DNA from: Nocardiopsis coralli
GTDB lineage: Bacteria > Actinomycetota > Actinomycetes > Streptosporangiales > Streptosporangiaceae
Length of the DNA stretch: 64,000 nt
Reading direction: 5' to 3'
Assembly: GCF_014892575.1 (NCBI RefSeq)
Contig: NZ_JADBGI010000005.1
Coordinates: forward strand, 1-64,000
Under the pieces are notes generated by a model. It was not told the origin of the DNA. It did not search any database and saw only the letters and a list, made by a program, of their open reading frames with translations. A program made the position numbers and the translations under genes. Positions 49,499-61,787 of the stretch are shown here, in pieces; position 1 is the first letter of the stretch; every line of letters starts with the position of its first letter.

Positions 49499-50680
49499 TC
49501 ACTTCGCCAGGAGGGACTGCACGAGGTCGCCGAACTCCTCGTCGTCGGTGAACAGCGAGGCCGAACCCTGCTCCTGGTCGATCTCGATCCGGACGGCACG
49601 CAGGTCGGGCAGCTCGGACTCGGCACGGTCCCGGGAAGAGGGGTGCCACCAGTACACCTGGGAGGTGATGGGCCTGTCGGCCTCCTCGACGAAGCGGTCG
49701 GCCATGTTCTGGAGGAGCTCGAGCGCGGCCACGGGGTGGCTGCTCTCCTCCCCGAGGACATGGGCCAGGATCACCTGCGGGACGGGAAGTGCCACGAGCA
49801 CACCGTGCGGGGCCTGCTCCACGTGCCTCGTGAGGACGTGCAGCTGGGCGGACACGTACGGGTGCTCACCGCTGATGTGCACGAAGTTCATACCGCCGAA
49901 GTCGTGGTGGGAGACCTCCACGGGTTCGGCGACGCTGTTGGCGACCGCCTCACCATAGGTTCCCTCCTCCGAGCGGCCGGTCTCCTCGTGCTGGTCCCGC
50001 TTCACCGGCTGGACGGTGTCGGGGGTGTTCAGCGCGACGGTCTCGAACAGATCGGCTCCGACCCGTCGGCCGAGCAGGGTGCCGGCCACACCCTCGGGGA
50101 ACCCGGACTCCGGGTACAGGCGCACGCGCAGCTGCTCCGAGGAGGCCTCCGAGAGGTCGGCCACCTCGGAGACACGCTTGATGACGGCCTCGGCGAAGGG
50201 GGTCACTTCGTCGAAGGCCGTGTCGAGGTCGGCGTCCTCGACACGGGAGAGGTAGTCACTCATGTCCATGGCGCCCCGTTCGCCGTCGCGGAGCGGGACG
50301 CTGATGGTCTGCGGATCCTCGAACCGGGCGGAGTACCCGAGCTCGTGCAGGACCCTGATCAGCACCTGTCGGCCGTGGTCGTCCGGGCGCGGCGGGTAGT
50401 GCGTACCCAGAGGCACCCCCTGCTCGCGGACCTGGCGGATCAGGGCGAGCACCACCTGTTCGGCCAACTCCGGATACTGCTCGGCCGACAGGTCCCGTGC
50501 GCGCTCGATGGCGTCGGCGTAATCCGTCTCCAAGGGGTCGTTGCCGGGGATCCGAATACGCATCCCCGTCGGCGGAAGCTGCTCCACCTCGACCCCGTGA
50601 CGCTCGTAGGTCTCGAGCAGCAGGGACATGAGATCGGAGGCGTTCTGGGGACCGCTGCCCGTGGGCGTGCTGTCTGTCAT
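49499..50680 (-). CDS. Hypothetical soluble protein, 393 aa
   Basis: A 393-residue acidic protein without signal or membrane segments. The ATG at 50680 (MTDSTPTGSGPQNASDL) separates it from an upstream IS3 transposase remnant that happens to be in the same frame; keeping the longer frame would fuse unrelated sequences. The C-terminal half contains VHISGEHPYVSAQLHVLTRH and a VLVALPVPQVILAHVLGEES stretch that faintly recalls DUF1444/YtpQ-like proteins, but I would not assign a family. Codon use is normal for the genome. Confidence 0.7.
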   Translation of the reverse strand: MTDSTPTGSGPQNASDLMSLLLETYERHGVEVEQLPPTGMRIRIPGNDPLETDYADAIERARDLSAEQYPELAEQVVLALIRQVREQGVPLGTHYPPRPDDHGRQVLIRVLHELGYSARFEDPQTISVPLRDGERGAMDMSDYLSRVEDADLDTAFDEVTPFAEAVIKRVSEVADLSEASSEQLRVRLYPESGFPEGVAGTLLGRRVGADLFETVALNTPDTVQPVKRDQHEETGRSEEGTYGEAVANSVAEPVEVSHHDFGGMNFVHISGEHPYVSAQLHVLTRHVEQAPHGVLVALPVPQVILAHVLGEESSHPVAALELLQNMADRFVEEADRPITSQVYWWHPSSRDRAESELPDLRAVRIEIDQEQGSASLFTDDEEFGDLVQSLLAK

Positions 50681-50892
50681 GTGTCGTGCGACTTCCGGTC
50701 GGATCCGCTGGGGCTCTTCCTTCCCCGTCGTGTCCGTTGCCGGACGGCCGGGCGCGGGAGGGTTCGCTCCGACGACGGGGAAACCACACACGGTATGCCC
50801 GTGAAGCAAGGCCCGGGACCGGTGAACCACGGGCCGGAGCTCCTGGTTCCGATCGACAGCAGAGCCGAAGCTCGGAACCAACGCATCGACGT

Positions 50893-51088
50893 GCGCCGAT
50901 GCCGGATCGTGCTGCTGGTAGAAGTCGGCTTCGAACTCCGAGGGAGGGACCAAGCCGATCTCTCCGGGCAAGCGGCGGCGGTTGAACCAGTCCACGTGCT
51001 CGGCCACCGCGATCTCCAGGGCCTCGATGCCCCGCCAGGGTCGCCCCCCCCAACCGGGCAGGGCATCCGCGTAGAGCCGGTTGAAAGT
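50893..51088 (-). pseudogene. Fragment of an IS3-family transposase
   Basis: About 65 codons read FNRLYADALPGWGGRPWRGIEA then VAEHVDWFNRRRLPGEIGLV and PPSEFEADFYQQ. This is the C-terminal end of IS3-type OrfB integrases (PWRG, WFNxRRLHGEIG, PPAEFE). The DDE catalytic region and terminal repeats are missing, so it is a dead remnant. Confidence 0.75.
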
Positions 51089-51260
51089 GAGTACTACAGC
51101 CCCAGGGTTGTCGCGGCCACTCGCCCGGACTGGCCCCTGCACGTGACGGTTGCTGTGAAGAGCCCCCTACTTCGGTGCGTCTGCCCGGGGCCCGGCGAAC
51201 GTGATCGGACCCTGGGCAGGCATGTGACCGAGTTTTCTTCCGCCGGTCGGTACAGGGTCT
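51089..51260. other. Spacer beside the IS3 remnant
   Basis: No gene, hairpin or inverted repeat recognised. With the sequence between 50681 and 50892 it forms the non-coding surroundings of the IS3 remnant. Confidence 0.4.
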
Positions 51261-52637
51261 CTACGGCAGTGCGGCGCCGAATTCGGCTTCCGTGCCGTCC
51301 AGGCCCATGGTGGCCGCGCCGAAGGTCTGTGAGCCTTCACCGCTCAGGCCCTCGTCGGAGTTGTAGATGATGGTGATGGCGCCGTTGCCGTCGTTCTCTC
51401 CGGGTACCCCGGCCACCAGGTCCAGCATCCCGTCGCCGTCCAGGTCGATCAGGCTCACGTCCGCGCCCATGCGGTCACCGGCCTCGGACACACCGTCCAC
51501 GCCGTCGGAGCCCTGAACGAAGGACTCTTGGCGCCCGTCGGTCCAGTCCGGGCCGCCGTGGACCACGCTCACCCCGCCCGCATCGTCACCGCCGTCGGGG
51601 TCCTCCACGGTGGTGTCACCGAGCACGATGTCGGCGTGCCCGTCATCGTCGATGTCACCGATCGCGACGGAATCGGTCCCCAGGCCTTCGTCCAGCGTGG
51701 TGCCGTCCTCGGTGATCCCGTCGGCCGAACCGGCGAAGACCCGAGCGGCGTCACCGTCGGCGGGGGTGAGGACCACGTCGGCGTGGCCGTCACCGTCGAT
51801 GTCGCCTGCGGCCACGTCCGAAGCCCCCTCGGGAAGCAGAACCGGTTCACCGATACGGACCGGATCGGAGCCCGCCTCGGTTCCGGAGAAGACCAGCAGG
51901 TCACCCAGGTCGGGGCCCTCATCGTGGGCAGAGGTCACGATGAGGTCGTCGACGCCGTTGCCGCTCACGTCGGCCATGGCCAACCCTTCGACTTCGTCAC
52001 CGGGGCCGGCGGCGGCCAGGAACGAGGTCACCGATGGATCGTCCGCCTCGTCCAGATCCTCGCGTCCCCACAGCACGCTGATGTGGTCGCCGTTGCTGAT
52101 GGCCACATCTTCCAGTCCGTCGCCGTCCAGGTCGCCGGTGGCCAGGTGGGTGCCGAACCCGGTGTCACCGCGCTCCTGGCGTGGCGAGTGCAAACCGATC
52201 GCGTCCTGGGAGAGCCCGTCCTCGGACCCGAAGACGACTTGGACCAGACCGGCGTCCTCGTACTCGCCCACGTCTTCCTCGGGGGCCGAGACCACCAGGT
52301 CGGCGTGGCCGTCGCCGTTCAGGTCGGCCGAGGCGACCTGCTCGCCGAAGCGGTCACCGACCTCGGGCGCGCCCGGCACACCCGGGGAGTCCTGGTCGAT
52401 CTGGTAGCCGGCCTCCGGATCGGCGCCGTCCGGGCTGCCGGGAACGACGGCCACGTATCCGCCGCGCACGTCGTTGCCGCCGATGCCTTCGGGGGCGCCC
52501 ACGAACAGGTCGGCGTAACCGTCACCGTCGATGTCGGAGGCAGAGACCGTCTGGGCCTGGGCGGGGACCAACATCAGGGGCACGCACAGGGCGCTCGCGC
52601 CCAGAAGGGCCGTGCTTCTGAGCAGGTGGGGGGACAT
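51261..52637 (-). CDS. Secreted FG-GAP repeat (integrin-alpha-like propeller) protein
   Basis: A 458-residue protein with a Sec signal (HLLRSTALLGASALCVPLMLVPAQAQ). The mature part has about seven FG-GAP/calcium-binding repeats, such as DIDGDGYADLFVGAP, DLNGDGHADLVVSAP, DLDGDGLEDVAISNG and DIDGDGHADVVLTPA, so it should fold as a beta-propeller with Ca2+ in each blade. Such proteins act in adhesion or as scaffolds for surface enzymes. GCAGGG precedes the ATG. It lies downstream, on the same strand, of the Rhs protein and small membrane-protein array. Confidence 0.88.
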   Translation of the reverse strand: MSPHLLRSTALLGASALCVPLMLVPAQAQTVSASDIDGDGYADLFVGAPEGIGGNDVRGGYVAVVPGSPDGADPEAGYQIDQDSPGVPGAPEVGDRFGEQVASADLNGDGHADLVVSAPEEDVGEYEDAGLVQVVFGSEDGLSQDAIGLHSPRQERGDTGFGTHLATGDLDGDGLEDVAISNGDHISVLWGREDLDEADDPSVTSFLAAAGPGDEVEGLAMADVSGNGVDDLIVTSAHDEGPDLGDLLVFSGTEAGSDPVRIGEPVLLPEGASDVAAGDIDGDGHADVVLTPADGDAARVFAGSADGITEDGTTLDEGLGTDSVAIGDIDDDGHADIVLGDTTVEDPDGGDDAGGVSVVHGGPDWTDGRQESFVQGSDGVDGVSEAGDRMGADVSLIDLDGDGMLDLVAGVPGENDGNGAITIIYNSDEGLSGEGSQTFGAATMGLDGTEAEFGAALP

Positions 52638-52723
52638 GTTGTTTCCCTGCTTTCTGTTATCTCTTCCGAACTGTTTCGTCTCGAACTTGCTACGGCAATG
52701 GAAGCGCTCACGTCATGTGGCGG

Positions 52724-53005
52724 CTAGTTTCTTGTCCGGTTCCACAGAATGATCTTGGGGAGGATCCAGATGAGAAAGAACACGATGGCCATGGCGGCAA
52801 AGGCAGCCCCCGCCCCAGGGGTGTCGTCATATGCAAACCAAAGGGATGCGGCAAGGAGCATGATTGGAACAAGGGAGAGTCCGACTATCAATGCGCGCCA
52901 GTCATGGCTTCCCGGGTTCTCTGGGAATTCCTTGTATCCGATGGGGAGGAGCATATGAGACTTGGCAAGGCGCTCGATGAATCCGGTGGGCGAACTCCTT
53001 GCCAT
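52724..53005 (-). CDS. Small two-helix membrane protein, array member 4 (candidate immunity protein)
   Basis: A 93-residue protein: ~40 hydrophilic residues (ARSSPTGFIERLAKSHMLLP), then helices LIVGLSLVPIMLLAASLWFA and AAFAAMAIVFFLIWILPKII, ending LWNRTRN. A strong GGAGGAG is 4 bases before the ATG. It is clearly paralogous to the gene at 57634-57951 (ERLA-x-S near the start; F-x-IWILPK-x-ILW at the end) and to the two broken genes between them. All lie downstream of the Rhs gene on the same strand. Immunity to the Rhs tip is inferred from position, repetition and topology, not from a known family. Confidence 0.75.
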   Translation of the reverse strand: MARSSPTGFIERLAKSHMLLPIGYKEFPENPGSHDWRALIVGLSLVPIMLLAASLWFAYDDTPGAGAAFAAMAIVFFLIWILPKIILWNRTRN

Positions 53006-53182
53006 ATGCTCCTCCAGCTTTGGGTGATGAATGCGAGGATCATGCGCATGCGTTGCACGTGAGTTCTCTGATTGCGCCCAACTCTACGTCATTAGGCCGA
53101 GTCTCCAGTCAGAAGTCCGCGCATGCTCAGGCCGGTGTAGCCCTAACCTTCCATGTTGCGATTGGGGCATAATATTTTTGTT

Positions 53183-53517
53183 TTAGTGCTTGTTATTTTT
53201 TACGGCGTTCAGCAGGTAGATCTTGGGGATGGCCATGAAGAAAATGCAAAATACAATAAGAGCAAGGCTGAGCACCATGCCGCCAAGGCTATCTCGCCAA
53301 AAAATGACATGTAGCCCAGGGCTCCAAGGGGTAGGACTGCCATCAGTGAGCCGATGATCACAGCTCTTACTTCCTTGGTTGAAGACTCTTCGCTCAGTTT
53401 GTCGGCAGCAGCTTTTGGCATCAGGAGGGGGTTCAGGGCGAGACTCATCATTGCTCGTCCGAAAAAAAATCTATTCTCTTCCATGGGTAGGGTCAATCTA
53501 TTTGGCCATGTCTTCAC
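53183..53517 (-). pseudogene. Small two-helix membrane protein, array member 3, frameshifted
   Basis: The frame starting at the GTG 53517 (overlapping the previous stop) gives the hydrophilic start and helix 1 (VRAVIIGSLMAVLPLGALGY), but then runs into SSWPSPRSTC, stopping at 53209. In the next frame the same DNA reads DSLGGMVLSLALIVFCIFFM followed by AIPKIYLLNAVKNNKH, stopping at 53183; this matches the second helix and IPK-I-L end of the paralogues. The switch falls at or near a run of six A at 53299-53304 (T on the coding strand). It could be a true mutation, a slippage site, or a sequencing error. Confidence 0.7.
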
Positions 53518-53646
53518 TCGTGTAATCTTTTGTTTCTGTGGTAGGCCAATGTATATGGAGCTGGGATCACCAGGAATGCGATGAGGGAGAATGTAAGAGC
53601 CAGTACGGCCGGTCCTTGATTCGTGTGATAGAGATAAAAAGAAAGT
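53514..53646 (-). pseudogene. 3' part of the transposon-split small membrane protein gene (array member 2)
   Basis: Reading away from the transposon, the minus strand gives FYLYHTNQGPAVLALTFSLI then AFLVIPAPYTLAYHRNKRLHE and a TGA (53514-53516). This is the second helix and tail of a paralogue of the neighbouring small membrane proteins. It is in frame with the 5' part at 57371-57615 once the transposon and one target copy are removed. The TGA overlaps the next gene's GTG. Confidence 0.8.
53639..53646. repeat. Target-site duplication, left copy (AAGAAAGT)
   Basis: The 8 bp directly outside the transposon end at 53647. An identical 8 bp follows the other end at 57363-57370. Eight base pairs is the usual ISL3-family duplication. 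Confidence 0.92.
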
Positions 53647-53649
53647 GGC

Positions 53650-54975
53650 TCATCCCAATCGGGGGTGTAGGAGTTGGGGTCTGAAGCCGCCGGTCTCGAG
53701 CAGGCTTCGGGCGATGTAGTTGGTCAGGTTGCGGAACCCGAGTGCGGAGCCGCGCAGGTGTTCGAGCCGTCCGTTGAGCGCCTCGGTCGGCCCGTTGCTG
53801 GTGCCGGGTCGTTCGAAGTAGGCGAGCACGTCAGCGGCTCGCTTCTTCAGGGTCCGGCCCAGGGTGGTGAGCTCGGTGAGCACCTTGGGGACGCCGGCGC
53901 TGAGGTCGGTGATCAGCTTCTCCATGAGCTCGCGGCCACGTTGCCGGTCCTCGTGGCGATAGGCGGCGATCATGCGCTGGTAGACACCCCAGGTCGCCTC
54001 GACCTCGACGTGAGCGTCATCAACGAACAGCGCGCGTAGCCTGTCGCTCTGCTTGTCGGTGAGCAGGTCCGCGCCGGTGTGCAGCGTGCGCCGCGACTTG
54101 TAGAGCGGGTCGTCCCTGAACCCACGGTGCCCGTGGATCGCGAGTTGGACCCGGCGCCGGCACCTGTCGAGGGCGTCACCGGCCAGGCGCACGACGTGGA
54201 AGGGATCCATCACCGTGACCGCGTCCGGGATCTCCTCTGCAGCGGCGGTCTTGAACCCGGTGAAGCCGTCCATCGCGACCACCTCGACCGCGTCACGGAA
54301 GGCGTCGTCGCGGTCGGCGAGCCAGGTCTTGAACGCCGCCTTCGACCGGCCCTCGACCATGTCCAGCAGCCTTGCTGGGCCGGCGCCATCGCGGACCGGG
54401 GTGAGGTCGATGATCACGGTGACGTACTTGTCGCCACGCCTGGTGTGGCGCCAGACGTGCTCATCGACGCCAATGACCTTCACGCCCTCAAACCGCGTGG
54501 GGTCGTTGATCAGCAGCCGCTTGCCTTCAGCCAGGACCGCGTTGTTGGCGGTGTCCCACGCGACCCCGAGTCCCTCGGCGACACGGGCGACGGTGAGGTG
54601 TGCGACCACGATCCCTTCCAGCGCCCACCGCAGCCCGGTGCGCGAGAGCTTCGCGCGTGGCTCCGCCGCGGCGCTGGTGTCTTGGCGCCACACGTGTCCG
54701 CAGTCGGCACAGCGGTAGCGGCGCACTACAACTTCCAGCACGGTCGGTCGCCAGCCCAGCGGCTCGTGGGCCAACCGCCGGATCACGGTGTCACGAGCAG
54801 CGCCTTCGCTGCCGCACCGTCGGTACCACTGATCTGGTTCCACCACGCGGCACGCGAGGACCGCACGATCCGGTTCAAGTCGTTGTCCGGTCACGCTCAG
54901 ACCGAGGCCGTCGAGTCGAGCGAAGGCGGTCAGGTCAGGGCGGCCGAAGCCGGCCGGCGGGGTAGCGTCGGACAC
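53650..54975 (-). CDS. ISL3-family transposase
   Basis: A 441-residue transposase. The N terminus has an HTH/zinc-finger region with cysteines (RYRCADCGHVWRQ); the DDE-type core has VIGVDEHVWRHTRRGDKYVTVIIDL, VVAMDGFTGFKTAA and VMDPFHVVRLAGDALDRCRRRVQ, and the C terminus has ERPGTSNGPTEALNGRLEHLRG, all typical of ISL3. The start is a GTG at 54975 inside the 166-bp end repeat. The stop codon lies within the left terminal repeat, 3 bp from the element's end. Length matches intact ISL3 transposases, so it may be active. Confidence 0.95.
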   Translation of the reverse strand: MSDATPPAGFGRPDLTAFARLDGLGLSVTGQRLEPDRAVLACRVVEPDQWYRRCGSEGAARDTVIRRLAHEPLGWRPTVLEVVVRRYRCADCGHVWRQDTSAAAEPRAKLSRTGLRWALEGIVVAHLTVARVAEGLGVAWDTANNAVLAEGKRLLINDPTRFEGVKVIGVDEHVWRHTRRGDKYVTVIIDLTPVRDGAGPARLLDMVEGRSKAAFKTWLADRDDAFRDAVEVVAMDGFTGFKTAAAEEIPDAVTVMDPFHVVRLAGDALDRCRRRVQLAIHGHRGFRDDPLYKSRRTLHTGADLLTDKQSDRLRALFVDDAHVEVEATWGVYQRMIAAYRHEDRQRGRELMEKLITDLSAGVPKVLTELTTLGRTLKKRAADVLAYFERPGTSNGPTEALNGRLEHLRGSALGFRNLTNYIARSLLETGGFRPQLLHPRLG

Positions 54976-55085
54976 GTCGAGGTCTTTCGGATGGATGGCC
55001 TAGGAACCTCCGTCGTCGGGAGACCTCGACGTCTATCTGCGGACCGACGCGCCCGGCCGACCTACACCGTCATCTGAGAAGACCC
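54920..55085. repeat. Internal copy of the transposon right end
   Basis: This 166 bp matches 57197-57362 with six mismatches by eye. It contains the first ~18 codons of the transposase and an inner version of the terminal repeat whose last bases differ (GACCC instead of GAGCC, plus one more change), so it probably functions poorly as an end. Confidence 0.9.
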
Positions 55086-55289
55086 CTGAAACGTCTTCGA
55101 CGACGACGGGACCGGCGAGGAGGAGGGCGCGGTGAGCTAAAGGAATGGAGCTTGCTCGGCTTCGACGCCGCCGCAAGCTCCGGTGAAACGGTCGGTACTG
55201 GTCGGTCGTCGTCGGTCACCACCGGATGGCGGCGTCCCCCACGCTCGGCGTTTGCGCAGGTCAGCGGCTCGTTCGCCCAGTGGGCGCAT

Positions 55290-55350
55290 CAAGCGATAGA
55301 CGCAAAGCCGACGTGATTAGGTCGTCGGTTCGATTCCGACAGGCGGCTCC
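55290..55350 (+). other. Possible 3' fragment of a tRNA or tmRNA
   Basis: GTCGG-TTCGATT-CCGAC (55324-55340) is a perfect T-stem and T-loop, followed by AGGCGGC and TCC, as in an acceptor 3' strand. Upstream CGAC-N7-GTCG could be a long variable arm. I find no matching 5' acceptor strand, D-arm or anticodon arm, so it is at most a truncated gene. Confidence 0.35.
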
Positions 55351-55358
55351 GGCGAACA

Positions 55359-55390
55359 GCCCCTGACCTGCGGAAACGCAGGGCAGGGGC
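55359..55390 (+). terminator. Strong hairpin behind the tRNA-like fragment
   Basis: GCCCCTGACCTGCG (55359-55372) pairs with CGCAGGGCAGGGGC (55377-55390) with one mismatch around a GAAA tetraloop. The following sequence is only mildly T-rich. It could be the former terminator of the RNA gene. Confidence 0.5.
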
Positions 55391-55607
55391 GGTTCGGTTC
55401 TGGTGGTCGCGCGATGCGCTGGCCTCACGGCTCTGCCCGACACCGACGTCGCTCTCCTCTGCGACGGACCCCTCGCCGGCTGAGCGCTCGCGGCCGGCAT
55501 CCTGTCCGTGTGCCGATAGGCCTCGCACCGCTCGGCAACGCAGCATGGCGTTGCGTCGCGACCTGGCGACGGCTCGGCGGGGCGCGATCGTCTCGTGCGT
55601 TGGCGGA

Positions 55608-55919
55608 CTACGGGAGCTTGGACGCGAGGACGTCGGCCGCCAGGATCTCGGGTGCTGCGCTGAGGAGGTGCTGGTTGGCCATCAGGGCTGCGACGATGGC
55701 GCCGTTGGCGTGGGCGTCGCGAGCGGCCTCGTCGGGGAATGCATCGAAGATCCAGAAGGTGTCGGCGTGGGTCCTGACCGCGAACCAGACAATCGTTCCT
55801 ACTTCTTCGTTGGCGAGTGCGACAGCGCCGGCGAGCAGATCGGCGAGCGCGTCGTGCTGTCCATCGGCCGCGACGATCTTGGCGACGAAGGCATACGGAA
55901 GTGATGCGGGTGTTGACAT
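55608..55919 (-). CDS. ABM-family (antibiotic biosynthesis monooxygenase-like) protein, transposon passenger
   Basis: A 103-residue single-domain protein of the dimeric alpha-beta-barrel ABM/YgiN type: AFVAKIVAADGQHDALADLL, GTIVWFAVRTHADTFWIFDAFPDEAARDAHANG are the typical strands and helix. Members include small quinol monooxygenases and stress-related enzymes without cofactor. AAGGAG lies about 9 bases before the ATG. It is divergent from the GlxA-type regulator gene inside the transposon and is probably its target. Confidence 0.85.
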   Translation of the reverse strand: MSTPASLPYAFVAKIVAADGQHDALADLLAGAVALANEEVGTIVWFAVRTHADTFWIFDAFPDEAARDAHANGAIVAALMANQHLLSAAPEILAADVLASKLP

Positions 55920-56026
55920 GAGGGACTCTCCTTGAAGTCGTGGTTCTTCGTGGGACGAGTTCAGCGTATGACGAGCGAGGGGCGGTGGGGAGTGGCGTAT
56001 ACGGCAGTATTGCTATTGTTTACGTC

Positions 56027-56968
56027 ATGCGTATCGGACTGATCGCGATCGACGGCTGCTTCGGTTCGGCTATCGCGTCGATCATCGACATCGTGCGGGT
56101 GGCCGACGGAGCCCGCGGCGATGTCGACCCGCGGATCGACCCGATCGAACTCGCCATCCTCGGACCGAAACGGCGAGTGACCACGACGGCATCGATGACC
56201 CTGTCGGTGGACCACCCGCTGTCGGAGTCCGGAGAGTTCGACGTGGTCGTCGTCCCTGCGCTTGGAACCCTTACGGCCGCCGCTACCAACGACGCCCTCC
56301 AGAGCCGAGATGCTCGTTCGGTCATCGCCTCGCTCGGGCGCCTCGACGAGGCGACCACCCGGATCGCCGCGGCGTGCACCGGCGTGTTCGCTGTCGCCGA
56401 GACCGGACGGATGTATCATCGGCGGGCGACGACCAGCTGGTTCCTGGGGCCGGAGTTCCTGAAGCGCTATCCGACCGTCGCCCTCGATCTCGACACCATG
56501 GTCGTGGTCGACGGGAACCTCGTCACCGCCGGCGCCGCGTTCGCCCACATCGACCTCGCGCTCTCACTCGTGCGATCGATCAGCCCCGACCTGGCCCAAC
56601 ATGTCGCCAAGCTCCTCATCATCGACGAGCGCCCGTCGCAGGCGGCCTTCGTCGCCTACGAACATCTCCGGCACGAGGACCCGATCGTCGTCGAGTTCGA
56701 ACGCTTCGTGCGCGCCCGCCTGGACGAACCGTTCAACGTCGCCTTCGTCGCGCAGTCGCTCGGCACCAGCCGGCGCACCCTCGAACGACGAGTCCGTGCG
56801 GCGCTCAACCTCACTCCGCTCGGCTTCGTCCAACGGCTTCGCATCGAACGAGCTCGGCACCTCTCAGCAACCACGGACCTCACCTCCGCCGAGATCGCGC
56901 TACGGGTCGGCTACGCGAACGCCGAGACTCTGCGCTCCCTCCTGCGTAGGGAGCGACGCCGTTCCTGA
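56027..56968 (+). CDS. GlxA/AraC-family regulator, transposon passenger
   Basis: A 313-residue regulator. The N-terminal half is a DJ-1/PfpI-like amidotransferase fold (MRIGLIAIDGCFGSAIASII, VVVPALGTL, AAACTGVFAVAETG with the elbow Cys), as in GlxA proteins. The C-terminal half has two AraC helix-turn-helices (NVAFVAQSLGTSRRTLERRV and TSAEIALRVGYANAETLRSLL). The ATG at 56027 fits the conserved start; upstream TATTGT at 56014-56019 lies 7 bp before it, suggesting a leaderless message. It likely controls the divergent ABM gene. Confidence 0.85.
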   Translation: MRIGLIAIDGCFGSAIASIIDIVRVADGARGDVDPRIDPIELAILGPKRRVTTTASMTLSVDHPLSESGEFDVVVVPALGTLTAAATNDALQSRDARSVIASLGRLDEATTRIAAACTGVFAVAETGRMYHRRATTSWFLGPEFLKRYPTVALDLDTMVVVDGNLVTAGAAFAHIDLALSLVRSISPDLAQHVAKLLIIDERPSQAAFVAYEHLRHEDPIVVEFERFVRARLDEPFNVAFVAQSLGTSRRTLERRVRAALNLTPLGFVQRLRIERARHLSATTDLTSAEIALRVGYANAETLRSLLRRERRRS

Positions 56969-57196
56969 CCTATCGCCATTCCTGTAGCCGGTGTGCTAGT
57001 GCTCGACTGGAACCACCTCTCAGCACGTCGCGTCGACGCTCCTGCGTCGCCCCTGGACGACCCACTCGACACGCCCGCAGCACAGGCCATGTGACGTGTC
57101 CCGGCTTCCCGGACGGTCGGGGTTGGGTGGCTGTGATGTCGCTGCGTTCTCGTCGAGAGGATCAGCAGACCCGATCAGAGTCGATTGGGATGAGAC
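56969..57196. other. Transposon passenger region, non-coding
   Basis: About 230 bp between the GlxA-type gene and the right-end repeat. No gene or clear structure recognised. Confidence 0.4.
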
Positions 57197-57362
57197 GCGA
57201 AGGCGGTCAGGTCAGGGCGGCCGAAGCCGGCCGGCGGGGTAGCGTCGGTCACGTCGAGGTCTTTCGGATGGATGGCGTAGGAACCTCCGTCGTCGGGAGA
57301 TCTCGACGTCTATCTGCGGACCGACGCGCCCGGCCGACCTACACCCTCATCTGGGAAGAGCC
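57197..57362. repeat. Outer right end of the transposon
   Basis: The 166-bp counterpart of 54920-55085. Its terminal bases match the left inverted repeat better than the inner copy does, and the target duplication follows it directly, so this is the end that was used in the last transposition. Confidence 0.9.
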
Positions 57363-57615
57363 AAGAAAGTCCGGCGAGGATGAGGGTGGGTATGAAGGTT
57401 GCTGCTATGAGAGGAAGCCGGATGTGGTCTTCAGGGTGCTCGGGAGGTTCTTGTAGATAGTGGACGAAGGAAAACGGGCCCCTGCAGGCAAGCCAGTATG
57501 CCAGTCCTTGTTTCTGTCTCGAGGTTGCCTCCGAAGTCGTCAGGGGTTCCTCATGAGTCTTTTCGGGCACCAGTATCCCCGCTTCGGGTGCGTTCCTCGA
57601 ATCAAGGCCTCTCAT
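57363..57615 (-). pseudogene. 5' part of the transposon-split small membrane protein gene (array member 2)
   Basis: From the ATG at 57615 (AGGAACC just before it) the minus strand encodes a hydrophilic start, FSFVHYLQEPPEHPEDHIRL, then helix 1 (LPLIAATFIPTLILAGLS). It then enters the transposon, where 18 foreign residues precede a stop at 57310. Joined to 53514-53638 across one target copy it yields a two-helix protein of about 125 residues with the same plan as its neighbours. The first coordinates include the right-hand target duplication (57363-57370). Confidence 0.8.
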
Positions 57616-57633
57616 GGTTCCTGCGCTTCTCGT

Positions 57634-57951
57634 TCATGAATCTCTCAGGTTTTTCTTCCCTCCCATCCTCATCCAGAGGATCAGCTTGGGTAGGATCCAT
57701 ATCGAGAAATAAAAGAATGCCATGAGGGAGAATATGGCAATCAAGAGAGGATCATTCTGAAGGTAGCTCACGAAAGTGAACCCCAGGAGTGCCAGCAAGC
57801 CGAGAGAACTGGCGGCGATGTAGTCGATCCATTGCCGTGAAGTTGGATGGTTGGGCATCTTCCACTTGGCGCCGAAAGAAAGAAGGCTTGAACGTGCCAG
57901 GCGTTCAATTATGTCTACGTGCCTTGCATTTCCTTCATGTTCGTTCTCCAT
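57634..57951 (-). CDS. Small two-helix membrane protein, array member 1 (candidate immunity protein)
   Basis: A 105-residue protein: hydrophilic start (MENEHEGNARHVDIIERLAR), helix 1 (YIAASSLGLLALLGFTFVSY), helix 2 (LLIAIFSLMAFFYFSIWILP), then KLILWMRMGGKKNLRDS. It is the first gene behind the Rhs gene (102 bp gap) and clearly related to the 93-residue protein at 52724. Base composition is lower in GC than the surrounding genome. Immunity function is inferred from position and the presence of paralogues. Confidence 0.78.
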   Translation of the reverse strand: MENEHEGNARHVDIIERLARSSLLSFGAKWKMPNHPTSRQWIDYIAASSLGLLALLGFTFVSYLQNDPLLIAIFSLMAFFYFSIWILPKLILWMRMGGKKNLRDS

Positions 57952-58053
57952 TTTTCACGCCCCCTTTCAGTGTTCATTTAGTGTTTGTTTGAGGCGGGCG
58001 CCTTGCTGGAGGTCGCCCGCCTCGTTTCTGCATGTCTGTCAATGGGTCATATG

Positions 58054-61000
58054 TCAGAACACCGTTGTGCCTACTTCTGTCACAGCGGCACCGCTTACAG
58101 GGTCAGGGAATGCTCCACCAACGCCCCCGCTGGCCATGCCTCGGAACGTCGCCTCTCGAACCTGACCCTGCGAGCCACCGGAAGCGATCGCACCCATTCC
58201 TCCAGCAGCACCTCCGATGGCCATACCACCCACTACGCCAGCAGTCGCGCATACTAGGAAGGCTGCCGTGCAAGTGAGAAACATACCCACTCCGAAGAGC
58301 CCGGTAGCGAGTCCAGACGCCATGTCACCGTGATCGACCGCGCTCATGAGCCCGGTGGGGTCGGTGCGGTTGATGGGGTCGCCCATGGCGTAGGCGTAGT
58401 TGTTCATCTCCTGGCGGGAGGGGTCGGCCTGGGTGAAGTTGAGCGTCATCGCGTCCAGGAACCGGTGTCCCAGGTGGGTGGTCCCGTCCAGGAACTGGTA
58501 CGCACCGGTGAACCCGAACGGGTTGAGCTCACCGGCCCGGCTGTCCTCGTCGACCTCGTCGGTGCGTTCGCCGAACGGGGTGTACTCATAGACCGCGTCC
58601 GGGGCCTCGGCCTCCGAGCCCTCGGCGGTCAGCGCCAACACCGTGTTCTGGTGGTCGGTGGTGTAGTGGAAGCGCTCCTCGTCCTCCCAGGCCACCATCG
58701 AGACCAGCTCCCCGGCGGGGTCGCGCACGTAACTGGTGCGCTCGCCCTCGGAGGCGATGTTGGTCGTGCCCAGCGCGGTGTTGGAGAGCTGGCGCTCCAC
58801 ACGCTCGCCATCGTCGCCGTCCTCGACGTCGGTGATGCCGCGGATCTGGGTCTGGTCGGTGGTGTCGTAACTCAGCGACCGGGCCAGGTCCCCGTCACCG
58901 TCTTCCGAACGCAGCATCTGGTCGGTGGGGCTGTACTCGTACGTGGTGCCGCCCCGGGTGACCATGTTGCCCGCGTCGTCGTGCTCCACCCCGGTTCCGC
59001 GGGCGTCGGTGACCTGGTCGGCGTCGTTGTAGGACCACTCCTCACCGTCGGCCGAGACGAGGTTGCCGGCCTCGTCGTAGGAGTAATCGATCTGCCCGTT
59101 GCTGGTCAGCCGGTCCAGCCCGTCGTAGGTGAACTCCTCCGTGGTGCCGTCCACGGTGCGCTCGGAGAGCTTGTCGGAGTCGTCCTCACCGCTGGTCCAG
59201 GAGTAGGAAGCACTCAAGAGCTCTTGGCCCTCGGCGCCGGTGGCAGTGATGGAGGTCAGGCGTCCGGAGTCGTCGTAGCTGCGGTCCTCCTCGGCCCCGT
59301 CCGGGTGGGTGGTGTTGGTGCGCTGGTTGTTCTCGTCGTGGCTGAAGGTGGTCTCGGCCCCGGTGATGTCGAGCAGCGAGGTCAGCCGGAACGCGTCGTC
59401 GAAGGAGTACTCGGTGGTGCGCCCGTGCTCGGTGAACTCGGTGACGTTGCCGACCGCGTCGTAGGCATACTCCGTGCTCTCCTCGTCCGAGGAATCGCTG
59501 CGCACGCTCTGGAGCAGGTCACCGCGGGCGTTGAAGGTGAACTCAGTGCTCACCTGGTCGGTGTGGGTGGCCACCAACCGCCCGTTGTCGTCGTAGGAGT
59601 GCGACTGGATGAGCTCGCCGTCGTGGCTGATGGACACGACCCGGTCGAGGCGGTCGTAGCCGTACTCCAGCGTCTGGCCGTTGCCGTCGGTGACCGAGGT
59701 GACCCGGGACAGCGAGTCGTAGGTGAACTCCATCGACCCCATCGGCCCGGGTTCGTGCTGGGCCACCATGTTGCCCGCGTCGTCGTAGTCGAACGTGGTC
59801 CGGTTGCCGTTGGCGTCGGTGGCCGAGGAGGGTGTGCCGTCGTTGTTGTAGTGCATGGACGAGAGCAGGATGTCCTCGTCCTCGGAGTAGGCCCGCATCA
59901 TGTTGCCGGCCTCGTCGTAGGTGAAGGACAGTTCGTTGCCGTCGGGCCCGGTGAACGAGGTCGGTTTGGCCGGGTTCGCGCTGTCGCCATAGCCCACGGC
60001 CGTCTCCGCCCCGGTGGGCAGTTCGGTGCCGATGAGGTTGTTGGCGTCGTCGTAGTCATAGCTGACCGAGGCTTCCAGGGCGTCGGTGGTGGAGGCGACG
60101 TCGGAGTTGGCGGTCCACTCCTGGGAGCGGGTGTTGCCGACCTGGTCGGTGGCCTCGGTCTGGCGCCCCATGTCATCGAACTCGTGGGTGGATTCGCCGC
60201 CGCCCGGGTCGGTGACCGTGGTGGAGGTTCCGTCGCCGTCGCCGTGGTCGAAGCTGTAGGTCGCCCCGTCCTCGCCGTAGGGCTCGGTGAAGGAGGTGAC
60301 CCGCCCCTGGGCGTCGTAGGACAGCTCCCACACGGCGCCTTCGGGGTCGGTGATCTCGGTGAGGTAGCCGTCCTCATAGGCGAAGTCGATGTCGTTGCCG
60401 GCGCGGTCGGTGATGGTGTCCGGCTGCCGGGTGGACTCGCCCCCGTAGGTGTAGGAGGCGGCCGTCTCTCCGGTGGGGTCGGTGACCTCGGTGGGCCGGT
60501 TGGCGCCGGTGTCCCAGTCCAGTGAGGTCGAGCGGTTCTGGGAGTCGTTGATGGCGATCAGGTCGCCGCCGTTGGAGTAGACGAAGTCGTTGGTGTTGCC
60601 GTTGCGGTCGGCGTGGGTGATGGCCCACCCGTTGGCGTCGAAGTACCAGACCTCGTCCTCGAACTCACCCCGGGTATAGGTGAGCGCGTAGTGGCCGTTG
60701 TCGAGCTCGGTCAGGGTCGCATTCAGCCCGGCGGGTGAGTCGTATCCGCCGTCGCCGTCCTCCATGAACTCATCGCAGGAGCCGGTGGGGCCGTGGAAGG
60801 CGATGCGGTCGGACTCGAACTTCAGGCCGATGTCGCGCCCGTAGGAGTGCTTCCACTGCTGGTTGAGGTCGCGGGAGTTGTAGACGCTGTTCAACCCGAG
60901 ATGGACGCCGGTGCCGCCGACGGTCAGATCGCGGTGGCGGATCACGGCGTTGCCGTTCTCCAGGTTGATGTCCACGTCGAGGCGGTCGCTGATCTGGTGG

Positions 61001-61314
61001 CGCTGCATCGGGTGCCAGTCGGCGATCCCGAGGTTCTCCTCGCCCGTGGAACAGGTCCAGGCGGGGCTGCGCTCGGCCTCGTCCTCGTCCTGCTCGTCGG
61101 GCCCGGCCGGTTCCCAGGCCTCGTCCGGCGGATCTTGGGCTTGGTGTTCGCCGGTGGCTTCGCCGGGTTCGAAGGTCTCGGGGACCGGGACGGTGCGGTC
61201 GTGCGGGGAGTGGGGGTCGGTGTCGGCCAGTGCGGGGGGTGCGTGCACGAGGGACGCGGTCAGGGTCGCGGCAGCTGTGGTGGCCACGATGGCCCGGGGT
61301 AGGTGCCATCTCAC
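58054..61314 (-). CDS. Secreted Rhs/YD-repeat protein with hydrophobic C-terminal tip
   Basis: A 1086-residue protein. The start is taken as the GTG at 61314, giving a clean Sec signal (VRWHLPRAIVATTAAATLTA to HAPPALA/DT); the longer frame adds a proline-rich stretch before it. Residues ~90-230 are the Rhs N-terminal part; ~230-930 hold many YD repeats (for example TTFDYDDAGNMVAQ, LEYGYDRLDRVVSISHDG), which form a toxin-enclosing shell. The core ends at NPFGFTGAYQFLDGTTHLG to NRTDPTGL. After it come only ~97 residues with a glycine-rich hydrophobic hairpin (LFGVGMFLTCTAAFLVCATA, GVVGGMAIGGAAGG). This tip resembles no nuclease; a membrane-acting toxin is possible. Small membrane proteins follow. 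Confidence 0.87.
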   Translation of the reverse strand: MRWHLPRAIVATTAAATLTASLVHAPPALADTDPHSPHDRTVPVPETFEPGEATGEHQAQDPPDEAWEPAGPDEQDEDEAERSPAWTCSTGEENLGIADWHPMQRHQISDRLDVDINLENGNAVIRHRDLTVGGTGVHLGLNSVYNSRDLNQQWKHSYGRDIGLKFESDRIAFHGPTGSCDEFMEDGDGGYDSPAGLNATLTELDNGHYALTYTRGEFEDEVWYFDANGWAITHADRNGNTNDFVYSNGGDLIAINDSQNRSTSLDWDTGANRPTEVTDPTGETAASYTYGGESTRQPDTITDRAGNDIDFAYEDGYLTEITDPEGAVWELSYDAQGRVTSFTEPYGEDGATYSFDHGDGDGTSTTVTDPGGGESTHEFDDMGRQTEATDQVGNTRSQEWTANSDVASTTDALEASVSYDYDDANNLIGTELPTGAETAVGYGDSANPAKPTSFTGPDGNELSFTYDEAGNMMRAYSEDEDILLSSMHYNNDGTPSSATDANGNRTTFDYDDAGNMVAQHEPGPMGSMEFTYDSLSRVTSVTDGNGQTLEYGYDRLDRVVSISHDGELIQSHSYDDNGRLVATHTDQVSTEFTFNARGDLLQSVRSDSSDEESTEYAYDAVGNVTEFTEHGRTTEYSFDDAFRLTSLLDITGAETTFSHDENNQRTNTTHPDGAEEDRSYDDSGRLTSITATGAEGQELLSASYSWTSGEDDSDKLSERTVDGTTEEFTYDGLDRLTSNGQIDYSYDEAGNLVSADGEEWSYNDADQVTDARGTGVEHDDAGNMVTRGGTTYEYSPTDQMLRSEDGDGDLARSLSYDTTDQTQIRGITDVEDGDDGERVERQLSNTALGTTNIASEGERTSYVRDPAGELVSMVAWEDEERFHYTTDHQNTVLALTAEGSEAEAPDAVYEYTPFGERTDEVDEDSRAGELNPFGFTGAYQFLDGTTHLGHRFLDAMTLNFTQADPSRQEMNNYAYAMGDPINRTDPTGLMSAVDHGDMASGLATGLFGVGMFLTCTAAFLVCATAGVVGGMAIGGAAGGMGAIASGGSQGQVREATFRGMASGGVGGAFPDPVSGAAVTEVGTTVF

Positions 61315-61787
61315 TGGGGGAGCGCTCCAGACAGGGGGAAAGGGGGATCGGGGGAGCGTCGGCGGTGGGCTAGATGGTGAGAGCAGGCACCTCGGGCCGG
61401 TCTGCAGACGCCACAGGGATGCTAAGCGCACACACGGTCAGAAGGTTGTGCACGCAGGGTAATCGATCTTGCTGTGGGTGATCCTCGGCGCGTGGGGGTT
61501 TGCGCCGACCGCGACGGGGAAACTGACCCGCCCCCGGTTCCGGCCAGGGGCGGAACGTTCGGCCCTGGTTCCTGCGTGTCCCGCCCGATGCGGCATGTGC
61601 TGTGCCCGCCCGCGGTGGTGCGTGGCCAACAGTGGCCACGCGACAATAGTTGTGTGGTGCCTGGGTGTCGGAAGCTTATGGTCCGGATTGCGCTGCGAGT
61701 GCCCGGCGCGCCCTTTGCGCGTTAATGTAGAGGCCTTGTCGGCCGCGTCCTCCCGCTCGGGCCGCCCTCCCCAGGGGATCCCTGCCC
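61315..61787. other. Divergent promoter region between the Rhs and GIY-YIG genes
   Basis: About 470 bp. Open frames overlap but show no domains. No clear operator recognised. Sequence near 61640-61740 is less GC-rich and may hold the promoter of the GIY-YIG gene. Confidence 0.4.

Follow-up and report, generated by a model that had tools for sequence, protein, structure and literature searches.

What can a Rhs protein do with a C-terminal tip of only 97 residues, and what are the four small genes that follow it? This question is raised by a locus of Nocardiopsis coralli (genome 6.4 Mb; nearest named relatives mostly Nocardiopsis), which lies in a 64,000-nucleotide (nt) stretch of DNA, hereafter called the window. 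An earlier, sequence-only reading of the window had proposed a toxin with an array of immunity genes. According to our analysis, with a probability of about 0.7, the locus encodes a polymorphic toxin: a Rhs shell, predicted to be secreted, carries a short membrane peptide with two cysteines (Cys), and two-helix proteins give immunity to it. What can be read from sequence is the Rhs architecture with its short hydrophobic tip, the rule of two Cys per tip, the pairing of tip and gene, the tandem orphan cassettes and the kept aspartates; by the same kind of evidence, the paired design of tip plus two-helix gene recurs in many other actinobacteria.

The Rhs protein and its predicted cut

The toxin side of the locus consists of one open reading frame (ORF), with two parts that matter here:

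58054..61431, minus strand: Rhs/YD-repeat protein (ORF call and domain matches), with a signal-peptide-like start as judged by eye
58348..58425, minus strand: core end with two aspartates (D at -21 and the D of DPTGL), predicted cut after the L
58057..58347, minus strand: hydrophobic, Gly-rich tip of 97 amino acids (aa), likely a membrane toxin

The Rhs ORF comprises 1125 aa with the start GTG at 61431, or 1086 aa with the start GTG at 61314. It contains RHS/YD repeats (RHS_repeat, E 5.6e-56) and a Rhs-associated core (Rhs_assc_core, spanning residues 950–1028) that ends in DPxGL, and these matches, together with the ORF itself, bear out what the sequence-only reading had described, i.e., a Rhs protein with a 97-residue hydrophobic, Gly-rich tip. 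Exactly two Cys are found in this tip, at tip residues 26 and 33, and its guanine-plus-cytosine (GC) content is 0.62 vs. 0.70 for the whole window. The sole match of a word-based protein search with the tip region was the window's own protein, a PDB sequence search with the window tip class gave no match at E ≤ 1, and PADLOC gave none for the tip or for the first and fourth small genes (S1 and S4, listed below).

Relatives were gathered in three samples. The first comprises 44 core–tip modules, 42 found by motif scan and 2 by position, on which the main counts rest. The second (30 proteins from a protein search with the core alone) and the third (22 loci from a class-wide search, with 23 of 394 genomes, and from four plasmid records; one locus, L157, had been met before) were taken after the two-Cys rule described below had been noticed. 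Nineteen of these 22 loci have a DPxG-type end and together they provide 20 tips, 17 of which are non-redundant and at least 40 aa long; their sources are six further actinobacterial families and plasmids of Streptomyces and Paenarthrobacter. Within the genus, 13 of the 40 genomes have the core end, and within the family 21 of 298 do, with four of these 21 bearing distant Rhs proteins that have neither the DPxGL end nor a membrane tip. Likewise, no such tip was seen in the Rhs loci that lack the DPxGL end (L083–L086, L146, L152 and L157, the last being the L084 locus again).

In the Rhs toxin Tse5, the aspartates of self-cleavage are D1141 and D1164 (PMC10684867). By position, both aspartates that align with this pair are kept in 42 of the 44 modules, at a spacing of 21 here vs. 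23 in Tse5. On the ground of this conservation, release of the tip by a cut immediately behind DPxGL is predicted.

Two cysteines in dissimilar tips

Among relatives, a variable tip follows the conserved core, and tips vary far more than the core does. Locus L011, for example, has the same order of Rhs gene, small gene and FG-GAP gene as the window. Here, identity is 95% over the final 80 residues of the core, 79% for the Rhs body and 65.5% for the FG-GAP protein, whereas it is 43% over 86 aligned residues for the tips (28% in a five-way alignment) and 33% for the first small genes.

The tips of the first sample, counted with the L of DPxGL, measure 29–103 aa and have a mean hydropathy of 1.0. 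Exactly two Cys occur in 33 of the 38 tips that share less than 80% identity; three others have one, one has none and one has three, and these five exceptions include two stubs of 29–30 aa and one out-of-frame copy. When Cys were dealt at random over the 38 tips, a test that ignores ancestry common to related tips, 9.7 two-Cys tips were expected and at most 20 arose in 20000 trials. The rule spans 36 tips that fall into 18 clusters, and the Cys gap among them ranges between 6 and 69. As a control, the number of Cys is random in 32 next genes (variance/mean 0.94), vs. a ratio of 0.11 in the 38 tips. Readable tips of the second sample (28 of the 30 proteins, with three tips read by eye; the frame is lost in P0034 and P0035) measure 54 to 101 aa and nearly all have two Cys; of the 15 that stay below 80% identity with the first set and among themselves, 14 have exactly two. 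The third sample gave 16 of 17 (4.5 expected, at most 12 in random deals), which brings the three samples together to 63 of 70 non-redundant tips. A looser final scan added five modules missed at first, three of which, all in L077 and two of them near-identical, each have two Cys and a two-segment next gene.

Could such a tip be a mere Gly-rich hydrophobic linker, left in a decaying locus when the toxin lost its catalytic domain? The window tip is indeed short, and two of the four small genes behind it are broken. However, short tips are the norm, nearly all of them have two Cys, and the same is seen in other families; because short tips are the rule, this highly improbable account was dropped.

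AlphaFold, run without an alignment, folds one N. xinjiangensis tip with two Cys into a helical hairpin that has a Cys close to either end (mean predicted local distance difference test score, pLDDT, 72.8); Foldseek found no match to this model at E ≤ 0.001. The window tip belongs to a class with a C-x5/7-C and a GGS motif, whose members are the tips of the window, L011, an L045 orphan, L081 and L077 at 3863. A scan of 34 tips for toxin and enzyme families gave only three single matches, which at E 0.015 or worse are at chance level, and none of these was to a toxin family. One domain family for all tips or all next genes was also considered and rejected, as Pfam and NCBIfam gave scattered single matches only.

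A toxic tip need not be closed by a disulfide, and its two Cys may instead bind metal or haem, carry a lipid, or link peptides into a pore. The wide range of Cys gaps favours such a role, since with gaps that differ so greatly one common intramolecular geometry is not obvious. However, exactly two Cys over dissimilar tips would suit a pair better than a metal site. Bacterial lipidation requires an N-terminal lipobox, which would count against lipid-carrying Cys. We regard these other roles as unlikely, if worth keeping in mind, and prefer a toxin whose two Cys pair with each other.

As a side observation, Cys stands 7 residues ahead of DPxGL in the core where the tip Cys are far apart (32), and Gly stands there where they are close (6), with one exception. 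This pattern recurs in the second sample and fails in the third, where Gly stands with far-spaced pairs.

The gene behind the tip and the small-gene array

A small same-strand ORF with two hydrophobic segments starts at most 250 nt past the tip stop in 37 of the 43 modules with room for it, where two-segment ORFs were called by a simple hydropathy rule and the lowest-GC one was used if several qualified. The opposite strand gave 1 of 43, and shuffled DNA gave a mean of 0.4 and a maximum of 2 in 40 rounds; in the third sample, the count was 13 of 17 vs. 1 of 17 on the opposite strand. Furthermore, tip similarity predicts next-gene similarity (Mantel r 0.71, 0 of 5000 permutations, 36 modules), also without entries of at least 70% identity (r 0.26, 0 of 20000, 30 modules) and under 50% identity (r 0.21, 5 of 20000, 29 modules). 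By position and by linkage to the tip, an immunity-type gene stands directly downstream, with exceptions.

Tip and gene also occur as orphan cassettes, each made of a core fragment, a tip and a small gene, in L045, L056, L058 and L077–L080, and in truncated form in L043 and L048; none was seen within the window itself. Many are in tandem. In L077, a full-length Rhs gene and ten cassettes take up about 12 kb, five cassettes lie behind the L078 Rhs gene, and shorter rows are found in L056, L058, L079 and L080.

These data bear on another account, which sees a surface adhesin here: its tip would anchor it in the membrane or help in translocation, and the small genes would encode its assembly or chaperone partners. 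Hydrophobic helices could anchor, and tip and gene are adjacent and co-inherited. However, an anchor would be conserved whereas the tips are hypervariable, tandem orphan cassettes of core, tip and gene are the usual pattern of polymorphic toxins, and some relatives of the small genes stand alone on a contig without a core match. An anchor is in our view distinctly unlikely, and we return to the toxin and its putative immunity genes.

In 5′ to 3′ order along the minus strand, the Rhs gene is followed by S1, the first part of S2, an ISL3-type element, the rest of S2, S3, S4 and an FG-GAP gene:

57634..57951, minus strand: S1, intact (105 aa), with a pair of hydrophobic segments, likely the cognate immunity protein
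57363..57615, minus strand: S2, first part, interrupted by the ISL3-type insertion
53647..57362, no strand assigned: ISL3-type element with passenger genes and an 8-bp target duplication, ACTTTCTT (DDE_Tnp_ISL3, E 4.2e-56)
53514..53646 (lower end about 53514), minus strand: S2, last part, beyond the insertion
53186..53517, minus strand: S3, frameshifted close to its end
52724..53005, minus strand: S4, intact 93-aa paralogue of S1
51261..52637, minus strand: FG-GAP protein after the array, a flank common to locus L011

Profile matches and ORFs agree here with the sequence-only reading, which had seen four same-strand small paralogues, two intact, one split and one frameshifted, of lowered GC content and followed by an FG-GAP protein. 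The GC content is 0.49 in S1, 0.56 and 0.46 in the S2 pieces, 0.50 in S3 and 0.56 in S4, i.e., 0.46–0.56 vs. 0.70 for the window. A profile of this group (the S family), built from relatives only with the window's own proteins excluded, matches S4 at E 1.7e-36 and S1 at E 1e-35. The S2 halves (E 0.011 and 0.042) and the S3 frames (E 0.0031 and 0.002), which were taken as read and neither joined nor repaired, match it weakly and in complementary parts.

The S family was surveyed in the 298 genomes of the taxonomic family, where at most 16 candidates per genome were scored. Matches at E ≤ 0.001 occurred in 11 of the 298, and in three genomes they were weak and lay inside long frames. All eight genomes with a match at E ≤ 1e-6 carry the Rhs core. 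Among the candidates scored, 12 matches reached E ≤ 1e-6; eight adjoin a Rhs module, and four are isolated, on contigs that lack a core match (G032 contig 145, twice; G032 contig 213; G011 contig 10), in the manner of orphan immunity genes. An S-family gene follows a tip of the window class in four of five cases.

The weak matches of S2 and S3 would also fit unrelated membrane genes that gathered in a variable spot and give no immunity to related tips. However, S4 is a clear family member by the E value above, and every genome with a family match at E ≤ 1e-6 has this Rhs, which makes such a chance gathering rather unlikely. The preferred reading keeps S2–S4 as putative immunity genes. When 33 next genes were scanned up to E 0.05, no Imm family (e.g., Imm17, with two transmembrane helices) was matched; each named family that appeared was matched by a single next gene, the best being MARVEL at E 1.2e-4. 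A search of the PDB with profile A3 gave two MraY matches at chance level.

Two observations in other genomes touch the S family. At L009:4239-5124, two tandem S-family genes lie on a 5.9-kb contig without a core match; other parts of that genome contain several Rhs modules. At L010:17859-18134, a stand-alone Gly-rich ORF of 91 aa with two Cys lies near a weak S-family match (G032 contig 213); this ORF has no Pfam match.

How far does the earlier proposal of a toxin with an immunity array hold? Its main part is strengthened, at the level of sequence, by the variable tip (a tip conserved across Rhs proteins had been named as a refutation), by small genes tied to Rhs (homologues occurring widely without Rhs, another refutation named, were not seen in the survey) and by tip and first small gene, which tend to be inherited together across homologous loci. 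Growth of the array by duplication, read as a recent event, is not supported. S1 and S4 are only 39% identical to each other, whereas S1 is 86% identical to P0002 from elsewhere; for S4, identity is 70% with P0004, likewise from elsewhere, and 57% with P0005 (N. dassonvillei). Judged by these identities, the array consists of members of old lineages, or was collected from separate lineages, rather than of fresh duplicates, and half of it is broken. It is best read as a polyimmunity locus of old, separate lineages.

Several points weigh against the toxin and its paired gene, besides the neglect of ancestry in the random deals and the simplicity of the hydropathy rule. First, the Cys rule is broken by the tip of P0024 in the second sample (no Cys) and that of L158 in the third (four), and the two remaining modules of the looser scan do not fit, the L079 one having four Cys and no two-segment next gene and the L061 one having eight Cys in a long out-of-frame tail. 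Second, the Cys of the window class lie 6–8 residues apart inside one hydrophobic stretch, which is awkward for a disulfide across a hairpin, and the window tip itself was modelled poorly (mean pLDDT 53.2), a model that was not used. Third, the tip of L077 at 3863 is of the window class and its next gene is outside the S family, and the tip of L079 resembles those of L044 and L078 while its next gene does not resemble theirs.

The cause of the S2 split, which the earlier reading had left unnamed, is the insertion of the ISL3-family element. This element is 3.7 kb long and has the identical 8 bp ACTTTCTT at both outer ends; seen side by side, these copies indicate that S2 was a single gene before the insertion. 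The passengers of the element are an ORF of 103 aa that weakly matches ABM (55608-55919) and a regulator of the AraC/DJ-1 type (55940-56968). The element also has two direct copies of one insertion sequence (IS) end (54920-55109 and 57197-57386, 92%) and looks like an IS that moves host genes. The FG-GAP gene was considered as a partner and rejected; among 23 loci compared, tblastn finds it only beside the window Rhs and in L011, and it is therefore read as a flank. Beyond it, a 547-aa ORF (49499-51142) has a start weakly like an IS3 transposase tail (E 0.053) and runs on into a protein of no assigned family.

Proposed mechanism and known systems

In the mechanism we propose, the shell would be exported by Sec and would cleave itself after DPxGL, freeing a short hydrophobic peptide whose two Cys would pair as a disulfide outside the cell. 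The peptide would enter the membrane of neighbouring related actinobacteria from outside and, once inserted, would depolarise the rival cell, while a two-helix protein in the producer's own membrane would block the inserted peptide. S1 would be the cognate antidote. The remaining three, S4 as well as the broken S2 and S3, would protect, or would once have protected, against further tips of this class (polyimmunity). A bolder version, to which we give an even chance, takes this actinobacterial Rhs class as a chassis in which each shell would mature and release a bacteriocin-like peptide, i.e., a hydrophobic hairpin of 45–105 residues with one obligatory disulfide, where the tip would be swapped with its own two-helix antidote as a cassette and some genomes would stock magazines of spare cassettes. 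Class II and circular bacteriocins are likewise short hydrophobic helical peptides, some of them disulfide-bonded or closed end to end, with small membrane immunity proteins. In contrast to the tips described here, they have their own leader and exporter and are not known to ride on a Rhs shell.

The closest comparison among Rhs toxins is with Tse5 and Tsi5, a type VI secretion system (T6SS) pair of Pseudomonas aeruginosa. Tse5 has a Rhs shell and a self-cleaved C-terminal fragment, Tse5-CT, which forms a membrane pore (PMC10684867, PMC9637101), traits that the window Rhs shares or may share; Tsi5 has two predicted transmembrane (TM) regions (PMC9637101), comparable to the two hydrophobic segments of the small proteins here. 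However, Tse5 is delivered by the T6SS in a Gram-negative bacterium, its toxin has 149 residues, and the word "cysteine" is absent from the main texts of PMC10684867 and PMC9637101. In contrast, the class described here has mostly two-Cys tips of 45–105 residues, a signal-peptide-like Rhs start, actinobacterial hosts and many variants with orphan cassettes. No named or solved pore-forming tip was matched by the 34 tips (for the window class, in the PDB), a comparison in which Tse5 itself was not aligned.

Other systems share single traits. The Bacillus inaquosorum teneurin-like protein (BiTLP) is a Gram-positive YD-shell protein whose hydrophobic C-terminus inhibits growth of Escherichia coli only with a signal peptide; the exported fragment makes E. 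coli dye-permeable, and its family has downstream immunity genes (PMC13018210). BiTLP differs in its Teneurin superfold and in that other C-termini of the family are predicted enzymes or have further functions, and the parts of PMC13018210 consulted mention neither a two-Cys rule nor tandem orphan tips. Ionophore toxins of contact-dependent growth inhibition (CDI) are polymorphic membrane-depolarising tips with polymorphic cognate immunity as well, but they are delivered by CdiA, have two domains, form five-helix ionophore bundles, use receptors and belong to E. coli (PMC11630599). The W-TIP domain is set apart by description only, as it is stated to be confined to proteobacteria and to bear an RxxR motif in helix 1 and a W-TIP motif in helix 2 (PMC3482391). 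In Staphylococcus, EsxX and TspA of the type VII secretion system (T7SS) are membrane-depolarising Gram-positive toxins; EsxX has a glycine zipper and membrane immunity proteins that also occur as orphans in toxin-free strains, and TspA has strings of non-identical immunity genes (PMC12744356, PMC9484751). Both differ in their delivery by the T7SS, and no Rhs shell is named in the abstracts of these two papers.

Pore-forming Rhs tips, two-TM immunity proteins and immunity strings are already in print (PMC9637101, PMC3482391, PMC9484751), as are orphan Rhs tips (PMC3967940). What is new is an actinobacterial Rhs class with a two-Cys membrane rule over many dissimilar tips that are paired with two-helix genes; a literature search, which covered few subscription papers or preprints, returned no title or abstract describing it.

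If the proposed reading is true, it would link Rhs polymorphic toxins with short membrane-active bacteriocins, and would do so in antibiotic-producing actinobacteria. The two-Cys rule and the two-helix-gene rule would make many unannotated tips and antidotes findable by sequence. They would also offer many natural toxin–antidote pairs in which to study recognition and silencing between tiny membrane proteins.

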